A stretch of 64,000 bases of DNA from Rubritalea profundi. GTDB lineage: Bacteria > Verrucomicrobiota > Verrucomicrobiia > Verrucomicrobiales > Akkermansiaceae. Numbering within the stretch: position 1 is the first letter of the stretch; each line of letters begins with the position of its first letter. The translations under genes and the position numbers were made by a program. The notes under the pieces were generated by a model, which made no database searches, was not told the origin of the DNA, and saw only the letters and a program-made list of their open reading frames with translations. Of this stretch, positions 3,395 through 7,069 are shown piece by piece. The stretch is from contig NZ_MQWA01000001.1 in assembly GCF_002954445.1 (NCBI RefSeq), positions 1,196,421 to 1,260,420 on the forward strand, read 5' to 3'.

Positions 3395-4525
3395 TCAATC
3401 CCTCCAACAATCCTCGTCCATCATCCAGACGACGCTGGTATGGTTGATTTCTTGGTGTCGTAGCTTGTACACTTTTTGGGCCTTCACGAGATCACGCTTA
3501 GGGTCATCACTCGAGACCTTTCCGGGGTCTAATAAACTGAGTTCAGCCTGAGTGCTCTTCATTTCACGCCAATTACTAATCAAAGTTCGCACCTCTCCAC
3601 GCACCTTGTCAGTGCTTAAAGTAACAGCATACTCGGCTCTTTGGTTTAACATTTCAGCCACTTTTTCTTTCATCACTCTTGTGCCAGGCACAGCAGGCTT
3701 ACTCTTTTTATGATTTTCTTTCAGCGCTTTGACCAAGCTTTGAGAGCGGCTGAGAAAGCACCATCTTTGCCATTCTGTGAGATCTGGCGCACTCACACTT
3801 CGGTAAGACGGTTTTGCCGAAGCATCTTTACGAAAAATCACATCGTAATACTCAGCATTAAAGAAATCTCGCACCTCACCGATCCAGTCGTCACGGTCTT
3901 TCATTACACTTGCTACCCATTTCTCTTGAGCCACTTTTAGTTTCGGATCTATCTGGTCACTTGGCTCAGACGCCTCTGCATCGATGCGCTTGATTTCCCG
4001 ATCGATCACCTCTCCCTTGCATAGCAAGGTGTAGAGCTTCACTTGCTCCTTTCTCATCAACAACTTAGCCTCTACAGAATCACCTTCTTTACTCCAGACC
4101 GTTTGCTCCATTTCATGAGAAATATCCTTCAAAGCACTGATCGATCCCAGCTGTTTAGGCAAGGCTGTGATCGGATCCTGAAAACTCTTCGCTAAAGACT
4201 GAGGCTTCAGAACATCGTTAAGAGAAACTTTTACGGAGGTTTTCAACTGACTACGAATCTGTGAGACCATCGGGGTTTCTTGATTCGCCGCCAGATAAGA
4301 ATTCATAGCCTTCCGGTAGGCTAGATTGCGTTCTTCCATCAACTGTAAAGCACCACTCCATGATACTTCGACGGTTTCGAAGGGAGACTGAGCTGCCACC
4401 TCATCCGCATAGCGTAAGCCCTCATGCTGGGCGTGATTCCCTAAACAATCAGTCACCTCTTGCTGAGCACAACTCAAGAACAGTGAAGAAGCTGCCGCTG
4501 AAATGATCAACATCGGAATGCGCAT
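3395..4525 (-). CDS. Predicted lipoprotein of unknown function, helix-rich
   Basis: I do not recognise this 376-residue protein. I start it at the ATG at 4525 because this gives a short signal peptide (MRIPMLIISAAASSLFLSC) ending in a clear lipobox, LFLSC; the frame is open 12 codons further to a TTG that would bury the signal. The mature protein is charged and rich in Lys, Glu and Gln, with long stretches that look alpha-helical or coiled-coil (for example SLVKALKENHKKSK and EKVAEMLNQRAEY). No enzyme motif is evident. It converges on the metal transporter with a 22-bp gap and faces away from the kinase-phosphatase pair. The 216 bp between its start and the kinase gene presumably hold divergent promoters, but I see no convincing box. 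Confidence 0.6.
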   Translation of the reverse strand: MRIPMLIISAAASSLFLSCAQQEVTDCLGNHAQHEGLRYADEVAAQSPFETVEVSWSGALQLMEERNLAYRKAMNSYLAANQETPMVSQIRSQLKTSVKVSLNDVLKPQSLAKSFQDPITALPKQLGSISALKDISHEMEQTVWSKEGDSVEAKLLMRKEQVKLYTLLCKGEVIDREIKRIDAEASEPSDQIDPKLKVAQEKWVASVMKDRDDWIGEVRDFFNAEYYDVIFRKDASAKPSYRSVSAPDLTEWQRWCFLSRSQSLVKALKENHKKSKPAVPGTRVMKEKVAEMLNQRAEYAVTLSTDKVRGEVRTLISNWREMKSTQAELSLLDPGKVSSDDPKRDLVKAQKVYKLRHQEINHTSVVWMMDEDCWRD

Positions 4526-4741
4526 AAAAACTATACGCAAGTCGTGTGGTCTTCCTTCCAAAAATATAGTTTCTCTCCTCCACTAATATACTGATGAGAT
4601 TTCTATGACAAAGGCCCTCAGCCACTCCTCTAGCAAATTTTCACTCTCTACCCTTCTCAGGGTGCACGGATACATGTTAAGAATAACTAGACTCTTGGAA
4701 CTAAGCATCCGCCAACAAACTCTATTCTCAATCTCTCACCT

Positions 4742-5134
4742 ATGAAAAACCTTAAAGATGGCATCCGCTCGTTGGTCAGAATCGACTTCTACGGCCACGT
4801 CCACAAATACTTCCGAGGAACTGACGCAGATCAGCGCTGTGCGACTGAAGTCAAAATCCTCAAAGAGCTCGAGCTGCGTAAGTGTCCCTTTGTACCTGTT
4901 CTCATAGACTATAAGCTGGAGGAGAATTATCTCTGCACCACTAACTGTGGATCGCCAGCTCCTAATATTTCACGCAAAAAATCAGACTCACTCTTTGCTA
5001 AACTGGAGAATGACTTCGGCATTCGCCACGACGATCCAGAACCGCGCAATATCACCTACGACCCAAATGCTGGTCAATTCTGTGTGATCGACTTCGAACT
5101 AGCAACTTTGCTAGCCGACCCATCTAAAAGCTAA
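4742..5134 (+). CDS. Minimal protein-kinase-like protein (130 residues)
   Basis: Despite its size, this protein carries the key kinase landmarks in order. There is a possible beta-3 lysine (K22 in VHKYF), a possible alpha-C glutamate (E36 in RCATEVKIL), a catalytic loop H96-D-D98-P-E-P-R-N103 that lines up with HxDxxxxN, and a metal-binding D117-F-E (VIDFELA) in place of DFG. DFE-type motifs occur in atypical RIO/Bud32/lipopolysaccharide kinases, which also lack most of the C-lobe. Nothing resembling an activation segment or C-lobe follows DFE; the protein ends 11 residues later. A glycine-rich loop is not obvious. The gene is 6 bp upstream of a PP2C phosphatase, which supports a signalling role. 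I cannot tell whether the substrate is a protein or a small molecule. Confidence 0.6.
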   Translation: MKNLKDGIRSLVRIDFYGHVHKYFRGTDADQRCATEVKILKELELRKCPFVPVLIDYKLEENYLCTTNCGSPAPNISRKKSDSLFAKLENDFGIRHDDPEPRNITYDPNAGQFCVIDFELATLLADPSKS

Positions 5135-5140
5135 GCCTAG

Positions 5141-5947
5141 ATGACTCCCACATTTGATTGGTCAGCTCTCACAACCTCGGGCTTCAGAAAAACCAGAAAC
5201 GACGACTCTTTCCTGATTTTCTCAGCAGGAATCGAAGGAGCAATAGAGCTCTCGGCTGAATCTTCATCTCCTCTGAGTAACGAAGATCTTATCTTCGGTG
5301 TCTCTGATGGAATGGGTGGAGGCAATGCTGGGCACCTAGCATCATCTATGATTTTGCAAACTCTCAGCGAGACTATCCCTAAAACTTTTAAAACGGCAGC
5401 CCAAGGATTGCACCCAGACTACCTCGAACTACTCGAACAAAAGGTCAAAGATGTCCACCTCGGCATTAACCAAAAGGCGGCCACCGACGAACAATTCAAG
5501 GGCATGGGGGCCACACTCACTCTCGCATGGTTTACACCTGAGAACCTGTACATTGCTCACGCTGGTGACTCGCGCCTCTACCTCTTCCGAAGCGAAGAAA
5601 CCCAACAGCTCACCGAAGACCACTCATTCTGCTGGAGAAAATTTCAGCGTGGTGAACTAACAGAGCGCCAATACCGTAACAATCCTAAGCGCTCAGTACT
5701 CTGTGAAGTCATCGGCGGTGGTCATTCAAAAGTGACCCCGTCAGTCGCTTCTATCCCCTACCAAAAAGGAGACCGGTTCATGCTCTGTTCAGATGGAATT
5801 ATTGACGGATTATGGGAAAAACACATCCATTCGGCACTTGGTAAAAACAGAGACTCGACAAGTGCTGCCGCAAACGCTCTTATGGATCGCGCCATTGATA
5901 ATGACGGGTCAGATGATACGACTCTCATTGTCATTGATGTCCGATAA
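5141..5947 (+). CDS. PP2C-family Ser/Thr protein phosphatase
   Basis: PP2C/PPM phosphatases remove phosphate from Ser or Thr using two metal ions. In this 268-residue soluble protein the metal- and phosphate-binding motifs are all present: TRNDD near residue 18, VSDGMGGG with D56, GMGATLT near 122, HAGDSRLYL near 140, LTEDHS near 157, LCSDGIIDGL with D218 and DDTTLIVI with D258/D259. It should be catalytically competent. It has no transmembrane segment or extra regulatory domain, so it appears to be the stand-alone bacterial type (PrpC/Stp-like). The preceding mini kinase and this gene almost certainly form one transcript, and the natural inference is that they act on the same substrate in opposite directions. 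Confidence 0.9.
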   Translation: MTPTFDWSALTTSGFRKTRNDDSFLIFSAGIEGAIELSAESSSPLSNEDLIFGVSDGMGGGNAGHLASSMILQTLSETIPKTFKTAAQGLHPDYLELLEQKVKDVHLGINQKAATDEQFKGMGATLTLAWFTPENLYIAHAGDSRLYLFRSEETQQLTEDHSFCWRKFQRGELTERQYRNNPKRSVLCEVIGGGHSKVTPSVASIPYQKGDRFMLCSDGIIDGLWEKHIHSALGKNRDSTSAAANALMDRAIDNDGSDDTTLIVIDVR

Positions 5948-6052: not shown

Positions 6053-7069
6053 ATGTCCAAATTCAGACTCGATTACGTATGGCTCGACGGTTACACACCA
6101 GTCGCTAACCTCCGCACAAAGTGCATGATGCGCGAATTCGATGAGTTCCCAACTCTCGAGCAACTCCCAGAGTGGGGCTTCGACGGCTCATCTACAAAGC
6201 AAGCAGCAGGCGGAGATTCCGACTGTGTACTTAAGCCAGTAGCTCTCTATCCAGATCCTACACGCCTCAACGGCGTCCTCGTCATGTGTGAAGTGATGCT
6301 TCCTGACGGTTCAGCTCACCCATCTAACTCACGCGCTACAATCGCTGATGACGAAGGCACATGGTTCGGCTTCGAGCAGGAGTACTTCCTCATGCAAGGC
6401 GGTCGCCCACTCGGTTTCCCAGTTGGCGGATACCCAGAGCCACAAGGTGAGTACTACTGTGGTGTTGGCTTCAAGAACGTCAGTTCACTTGGCCGCGAAA
6501 TTTCTGACACCCACCTCGATCTCTGTATCGAAGCTGGCATCAACCACGAAGGCATCAACGCAGAAGTTGCTGCTGGTCAGTGGGAATTCCAAATCTTCGG
6601 CAAGGGCTCTAAGCGTTGCGCTGACGAAATGTGGATGGCTCGCTTCCTCCTTCTCCGTCTCTGTGAAGAGTACGAGATCGACGTAGAGTGGCACTGCAAG
6701 CCAGTCAAAGGCGACTGGAACGGTTCAGGCATGCACTGTAACTTCTCCACTACACACCTTCGTGAAGTGGGTGGTAAGGAATACTTCCTCAAGCTTATGG
6801 ATGCATTTGAAGAGTTCACTGAAGAGCACATCGCTGTTTACGGACCTGAGAACGAACTCCGCCTCACCGGCCTTCACGAGACTCAGTCAATCGACAAGTT
6901 CTCATGGGGTGTTGCTGACCGTGGCGCTTCTGTTCGCGTTCCACACAGCTTCGTTAAAGACGACAAGTACCAAGGCTACCTTGAAGACCGTCGTCCTAAC
7001 TCCGAGGGTGACCCGTACCTCATCGCTTCACGCGTTATCCAGACTATCCAGTCTGTACCAACTGCGTAA
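6053..7069 (+). CDS. glnII: Glutamine synthetase type II
   Basis: Glutamine synthetase makes glutamine from glutamate, ammonia and ATP. At 338 residues this is the short, eukaryote-like type II enzyme rather than the roughly 470-residue type I. The N-terminus (VWLDGY, then EWGFDGSSTKQA) and the catalytic segments FGFEQEYFL, AGINHEGINAEVAAGQWEFQ, GDWNGSGMHCNFST, ENELRLTGLHETQ and FSWGVADRGASVRVP are all type II hallmarks. They include the metal-binding Glu residues and the flap and ATP-site Arg residues. Codon use is strongly biased towards C-ending codons compared with its neighbours, as expected for a highly expressed gene. It is monocistronic: a sigma-54-like promoter precedes it and a strong hairpin terminator follows 43 bp after the stop. 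Confidence 0.96.
   Translation: MSKFRLDYVWLDGYTPVANLRTKCMMREFDEFPTLEQLPEWGFDGSSTKQAAGGDSDCVLKPVALYPDPTRLNGVLVMCEVMLPDGSAHPSNSRATIADDEGTWFGFEQEYFLMQGGRPLGFPVGGYPEPQGEYYCGVGFKNVSSLGREISDTHLDLCIEAGINHEGINAEVAAGQWEFQIFGKGSKRCADEMWMARFLLLRLCEEYEIDVEWHCKPVKGDWNGSGMHCNFSTTHLREVGGKEYFLKLMDAFEEFTEEHIAVYGPENELRLTGLHETQSIDKFSWGVADRGASVRVPHSFVKDDKYQGYLEDRRPNSEGDPYLIASRVIQTIQSVPTA

Follow-up and report, generated by a model that had tools for sequence, protein, structure and literature searches.

Kinase/PP2C pairs and minimal kinases are already known. In the PrkC/PrpC and PknB/PstP systems, the gene of a Hanks kinase is paired with that of a PP2C phosphatase of the Stp1/PstP family, and Hanks kinases contain a full bilobal domain, often together with a membrane anchor and a sensor. 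PP2C phosphatases act on phosphoproteins, and the classical covalent control of glutamine synthetase is adenylylation. GlnA from B. subtilis is reportedly phosphorylated by the Hanks kinase PrkC (PMC6213207), and the cyanobacterial PP2C phosphatase PphA is described as dephosphorylating PII (PMC10651672). OspG and SteC are described as secreted effectors, OspG being activated by E2~ubiquitin (PMC4197628, PMC13395416), and the compact fold of the tRNA 2'-kinase ArkI reportedly lacks the peptide-binding subdomain VIII (PMC9095486).

The window, i.e., the whole stretch of 64,000 nucleotides from Rubritalea profundi that was analysed, contains a kinase gene, a PP2C gene and a glutamine synthetase gene one after another:

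4742..5134, + strand: half-kinase, 130 aa from ATG, consisting of an N-lobe (beta1-beta5/alphaC), alphaE, the catalytic loop and DFE, followed by the end of the chain
5141..5947, + strand: PP2C (PPM) Ser/Thr phosphatase of the Stp1/PstP type, 268 aa, full length
6053..7069, + strand: type II glutamine synthetase (GSII), 338 aa, the next gene after PP2C

Neither a kinase family whose chain stops just past DFE nor a GSII–kinase–PP2C module was found on record in open-licence PMC papers. In its passages on these topics, the Global Ocean Sampling paper treats the neighbours of bacterial type II glutamine synthetases and kinase–PP2C adjacency separately, and the module is absent from them (PMC1821046), while the sections of a GSII evolution paper that place GSII in Verrucomicrobia do not mention a kinase (PMC2978018).

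Structure and distribution of the half-kinase

The initial annotation had described a kinase-like protein of unusual compactness with almost no C-lobe, a description that holds in every part. An AlphaFold2 model built on a 91-row alignment (pLDDT 96.6, pTM 0.89) displays the order beta1-beta2-beta3-alphaC-beta4-beta5-alphaE-catalytic loop-beta7-beta8, with strands and helices named by their order along the chain, and stops at residue 130, 13 residues past D117 of DFE, after a final strand at 121-123. The best PDB matches of this model in Foldseek are Ark1, PRPK/Bud32, Rio2 and CK2, with OspG lower, and the first of them is the Ark1 tRNA kinase (8yv5_B, E 7.7e-7, TMq 0.69). Comparison by VIA-align with solved kinases, covering the families in the VIA list, yielded Z values of 10-13, an rmsd of about 2.6-4.4 and 112-127 aligned residues, mostly in the first parts of kinase domains (e.g., PRPK 36-194 and Ark1 3-125). 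The three approaches agree on a kinase, so the non-kinase fold that had been considered as a refutation did not appear. The VAIK-type Lys, the alphaC Glu, HxD..N and DFx, together with the matches to solved kinases, place the protein in the protein-kinase-like superfamily; a full Hanks-type domain, on the other hand, is not present, since the model is devoid of the activation segment and the alphaF-alphaI C-lobe. As modelled, the half-kinase is a complete N-lobe joined to only the ATP-facing part of the C-lobe.

The motif positions proposed in that annotation (K22, E36, H96xD98xxxxN103 and D117FE) are all correct, the full pattern being K22, E36, H96-x-D98-x3-R102-N103 and DFE at 117-119. Their conservation lies far beyond chance: K22, E36, H96, D98, R102, N103, D117, F118 and E119 are each found in 94/94 aligned distinct relatives, a count that leaves out the weak out-of-class match L088, and K5, V12, G26, R32, G70, T105 and Y106 are likewise invariant (94/94). 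Outside the known catalytic motifs, three cysteines are conserved, namely C48 (92/94), C69 (90/94) and C114 (85/94), with a possible redox or metal role.

Among described families, the APH profile of Pfam (PF01636) matches the half-kinase of the window with 20.9 bits, below its cut-off of 23.2, and only over profile positions 157-199 out of 239. No residues remain in the half-kinase for the C-terminal helical substrate subdomain of APH. Nevertheless, APH matches all 91 of the 91 family members at E<=0.1 (best 2.7e-9), which makes a distant kinship likely at the sequence level; the Kdo kinase family matches 54/91. The NCBIfam Bud32 model TIGR03724 scores 17.6 bits, below its cut-off of 125. A GHKL/RsbW-type anti-sigma kinase, suggested by the size of the protein and its PP2C neighbour, was rejected, as Pfam points to APH and to no GHKL-type family and the fold contains an ePK-like N-lobe.

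The half-kinase gene is present as one copy in the R. profundi genome (genome search). A single-sequence search detected it in 54/58 close relatives and in 79/387 phylum-wide genomes, 78 of them from the same class, and a profile search matched 94/387. The 16 out-of-class profile matches all have E >= 1e-11, compared with about 1e-55 or better within the class; the best of them (G257, E 1.1e-11) is a protein that resembles methyltransferases and contains a kinase domain, followed by a long kinase (G417). In a draw of 286 genomes of the class, 161 contain the half-kinase, nearly always as a single copy, and it is kept across most families of this one Verrucomicrobiota class. Separate, unfused members comprise 127-171 aa (script extraction), and fused ones run directly into PP2C. 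Searches of 72,556 plasmid and 50,697 phage records (tblastn, E<=0.01) returned no match, an absence by which cargo of mobile elements was ruled out. The genes of the module are small and nearly always single-copy, and they are also present in Rubritalea marina DSM 17716 (L007).

Linkage to PP2C and type II glutamine synthetase

A full PP2C phosphatase placed 6 bp behind the kinase had been annotated as a possible signalling pair with it, and both the arrangement and its recurrence across genomes were confirmed. The product of 5141-5947 matches PF00481 above the cut-off (E 1.1e-14), it is full length, and the active-site Asp residues D22, D56, D218 and D258, which have a metal-site role in PP2C phosphatases, are conserved in 82/82 aligned sequences. 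The Stp1/IreP equivalog NF033484 (NCBIfam) matches it with E 2e-50 and 171.5 bits, below the cut-off of 230. The half-kinase and PP2C share a common reading frame across the 6-nt gap, with TAA GCC TAG between them. The two stop codons (TAA and TAG) at 5132-5141 are in frame with both genes, so that small changes would suffice for fusion.

The 179 loci collected correspond to 141 that are unique by kinase DNA, L088 and L119 being left out, and the downstream gene was judged in 134 of these, the other 7 being too short. A PP2C partner is found in 124 of the 134, as a separate gene directly downstream in 97 and fused in 27 to form a single ORF of about 400 codons; 10 loci have none. A quickly built tree of 140 rows, with 54/137 inner branches drawn open, shows at least 6 changes between the fused and the separate state; two groups of fused genes (SH-aLRT 99 and 100) branch from within the separate ones. 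The model of the fused homologue L173 (404 aa; pLDDT 95.0, pTM 0.79) comprises two domains, both well folded, joined by a linker of lower confidence. The matches of its PP2C part include PstP 1txo (E 4e-23) and tPphA 2xzv. The idea that PP2C completes the C-lobe of the kinase received no support from this fused model (pTM 0.79).

Where PP2C is missing, the half-kinase lies directly behind an MgtE-like gene on the same strand in 9/10 loci, the exception being L023. This gene, in L006, L051, L100-L105 and L149, would encode an Mg2+ transporter, and its end often touches or overlaps the half-kinase gene; the product, 465 aa in L105, was named by eye from its sequence. The R. profundi genome contains 14 Pkinase-domain matches versus 2 Stp1-type phosphatases. 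The other Stp1-type PP2C match (G000 C1:4002563-4004077) is apparently part of one 585-aa frame with a full Pkinase domain, and thus appears to be another kinase-phosphatase fusion.

The initial annotation had also pointed to an FHA or other substrate gene. No FHA gene was apparent among the recurrent neighbours as clustered by sequence, which comprise kinase/PP2C, GSII, the MgtE-like gene and unrelated families; the conserved neighbour is GSII. The nearest solved relatives of 6053-7069 are GSII-type enzymes from Streptomyces, yeast, plant and animal. The closest PDB match is 4bax (E 2.6e-94), 16 distinct sequences match at E<=1e-70, and type I glutamine synthetases match at E 5e-5 or worse. 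With PF00120, a model that matches in 14/14 control genomes, no further glutamine synthetase was detected in the R. profundi genome. Among the 100 unique loci whose flanks are long enough to judge, 73 have GSII in the vicinity and 27 do not; it is placed divergently just upstream of the half-kinase in 60, on the same strand downstream in 12, and otherwise in 1. In the divergent arrangement, found in most families, the distance from the GSII match to the half-kinase is about 125-500 bp, and in family f1 GSII is on the same strand after PP2C. The two arrangements are separated by a single change on the tree, and the linked and unlinked states by 15 changes. Moreover, in genera g7 and g10, where the half-kinase has moved away, PP2C is still divergent to GSII in 10/11 genomes (exception G032). 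The genome G025 harbours two modules with a kinase, a PP2C and a GSII gene each; in its loci L120 and L121, each fused kinase-PP2C is accompanied by its own GSII, in two different arrangements. Although it lies outside 4742-5947, GSII belongs to the same conserved unit as the kinase/PP2C pair. Directly upstream of the half-kinase and divergent to it, 3395-4561 (- strand) encodes a 388-aa protein with no Pfam match above the cut-off. No Rfam match to a glutamine riboswitch or RNA regulator was found near the locus in the window and 13 wide loci.

The co-occurrence of the three genes was assessed in three draws of 286 class genomes (kinase, GSII and PP2C), assumed to comprise the same genomes because they match in size and in the genome labels listed, with a presence threshold of E<=1e-20 for GSII and PP2C. 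The half-kinase is present in 161, GSII in 165, PP2C in 163 and all three in 158. Half-kinase and GSII are both present in 160 and both absent in 120; one genome has only the kinase (G482) and five only GSII, namely G442, G484, G562 and G581 of family f92, with weaker GSII matches (1e-77 to 1e-128), and G528. For half-kinase and PP2C, 159 genomes have both, 121 neither, two only the kinase (G565 and G572) and four only PP2C, all four with PP2C matches at E about 1e-22. The phi value is 0.96 for each pair, a statistic inflated by the shared ancestry of the genomes, which also deprives P-values for co-occurrence of meaning. The same 20 genomes of genus g3 are negative for all three genes, and G041 is negative for half-kinase and GSII; these lineages lie inside families that otherwise have the genes, which speaks for the link between half-kinase and GSII. 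Against it stand genus g5 (G015 and G027), with a divergent GSII (58% identity) and no half-kinase, and G014 and G030, which have a half-kinase but lack GSII, their assemblies being incomplete (69% and 84%).

Possible function of the module

By analogy with PrkC and PphA, it is most likely the phosphorylation state of GSII, or of a close regulator, that the half-kinase and PP2C determine. The more specific reading, in which GSII, half-kinase and PP2C constitute a nitrogen-assimilation module with a kinase/phosphatase switch acting on GSII or its immediate control, comes close to an even chance and is put forward tentatively. The fold, the invariant catalytic residues, the linkage and fusions, the co-occurrence and the single glutamine synthetase detected in the R. 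profundi genome are observations; catalysis, completion by a partner, the identity of the substrate, the direction of control and the signal are inferred. The half-kinase would bind ATP/Mg through a normal N-lobe, the HxD..RN catalytic loop and the DFE metal loop, and would be active only when docked on a partner, either GSII itself or the often-fused PP2C, because it has neither an activation segment nor alphaF-I to hold a substrate. The docked half-kinase would then phosphorylate GSII or a GSII-controlling protein, and PP2C would reverse this phosphorylation, so that glutamine synthesis would be set by a reversible switch.

Completion by a partner is probable in the light of two minimal kinases. 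OspG is described as a minimal kinase domain whose missing C-terminal region is occupied by ubiquitin, the bound partner stabilising the active state (PMC4197628), and inactivity is reported for the SteC fragments 210-375 and 200-377, whose ends near alphaEF roughly coincide with that of the half-kinase (PMC13395416). GSII and PP2C are the obvious candidates for this role. It is doubtful, although conceivable, that the half-kinases are a new family with the smallest conserved kinase domains encountered in these searches, that they are active only with a substrate platform provided by the GSII oligomer or PP2C, and that they form a dedicated GSII switch together with PP2C. The inactivity of the SteC fragments, the 27/100 loci with no GSII nearby and the 9/10 PP2C-less loci in which the kinase follows an MgtE-like gene instead all count against the switch. 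Furthermore, an alignment of 103 GSII sequences with 4 divergent ones yielded no clear candidate for a GSII phosphosite specific to kinase-bearing genomes; S186 and H298/S299 differ between the two sets and are not convincing, the grouping being by divergence, with two of the divergent-GSII genomes, G036 and G039, carrying the half-kinase.

The chief alternative as regards the target is another substrate and, as regards the mechanism, non-catalytic ATP sensing. In the former case, rather unlikely on present evidence, kinase and PP2C would be a real signalling pair acting on a PII-like protein, an MgtE/Amt transporter or Hanks kinases, and would share nitrogen control with GSII in expression, GSII being linked only via a common promoter region. 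The short intergenic region of the divergent arrangement suits shared regulation, and the position of the kinase behind MgtE-like genes suits a transporter; similarly, with only 2 Stp1-type phosphatases for 14 Pkinase matches, PP2C may serve larger kinases. However, a divergent promoter alone cannot explain the retention of GSII on the same strand in family f1, PP2C stays with GSII once the half-kinase leaves, and 120 of the 125 kinase-less genomes are also devoid of GSII. As for sensing, the half-kinase would be an ATP-binding regulatory subunit or sensor that responds to ATP/ADP and adjusts the activity of PP2C or of GSII, and not a phosphotransferase. This is improbable, given that the complete invariance of D98, N103, D117, K22 and E36 is hard to explain in the absence of catalysis, even though Mg-ATP binding alone would preserve most invariant residues except D98, and the frequent fusion to PP2C, the end point shared with inactive SteC fragments and the modelled lack of an activation segment, alphaF and a substrate platform would all fit a sensor.

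Phosphorylation of a small molecule or RNA, as in APH/choline kinases or ArkI, with the PP2C link reflecting control of the kinase, is very unlikely. The best family matches (APH and Kdo kinase) and the top Foldseek match, an RNA kinase, are in its favour, whereas PP2C phosphatases act on phosphoproteins and the C-lobe parts used by APH, choline kinases and ArkI are absent from the half-kinase. The alignment ends at residue 125 of the 173-residue Ark1 chain, and the half-kinase has no C-terminal lobe with the YKR motif. In TkArkI, this lobe is described as running to residue 216, with the YKR motif at 200-202 in alpha7, and K201A severely reduces activity (PMC9095486). Finally, the very short product could suggest a pseudogene derived from a larger kinase by decay or truncation, the remnant that had been named as a possible refutation. 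The same extent and end point in 161/286 genomes, the invariance of the catalytic residues and the lack of any longer kinase among the family members of the class refute a remnant and leave this explanation with practically no probability.

The conserved module suggests that nitrogen assimilation is subject to an on/off switch not noticed before. Should the module function in the proposed way, Verrucomicrobiota would possess a phosphorylation switch dedicated to the enzyme through which ammonium enters metabolism, a covalent control of glutamine synthetase distinct from adenylylation and conserved across a bacterial class, and the half-kinase would offer a test, provided by nature, of the minimum part of the kinase fold that catalysis requires.

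Comparison with known systems

Like the minimal effector kinases OspG and SteC, the half-kinase has a kinase fold in which the C-lobe is depleted. OspG (4q5h) is among its Foldseek matches (E 2.7e-5), with a longer chain of 169 residues, and SteC, unlike the half-kinase, is described as keeping alphaF and alphaG (PMC13395416). The tRNA 2'-kinase ArkI/Ark1, its top Foldseek match, is also compact, but its C-terminus extends about 45 residues further and it has an RNA-binding surface, and its eraser is given as KptA, not PP2C (PMC9095486). The cyanobacterial PII/PphA system is alike in that a PP2C phosphatase reverses serine phosphorylation in nitrogen control, and tPphA (2xzv) is among the fold matches of the PP2C part of the fused relative L173; however, that system targets PII, and its kinase is described as elusive, with SpkB as a candidate (PMC10651672).

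Bud32/PRPK and RIO kinases are structural neighbours with short kinase domains (VIA Z 11-13), whose chains extend past the end point of the half-kinase. A compact kinase domain of related sequence (G257/L119, 3060-4427), with the motifs RKTFRG, HRDMNRKN and IDFE, is fused behind a methyltransferase-like domain, and its neighbours look, by eye, like polysaccharide genes. This protein presumably resembles the WbdD methyltransferase-kinase. Lastly, the locus is similar to PrkC/PrpC and PknB/PstP in that a kinase gene lies beside a PP2C gene of the Stp1/PstP family; whereas the Hanks domain of those kinases is bilobal, the kinase of the window is a 130-aa half-domain linked to GSII.
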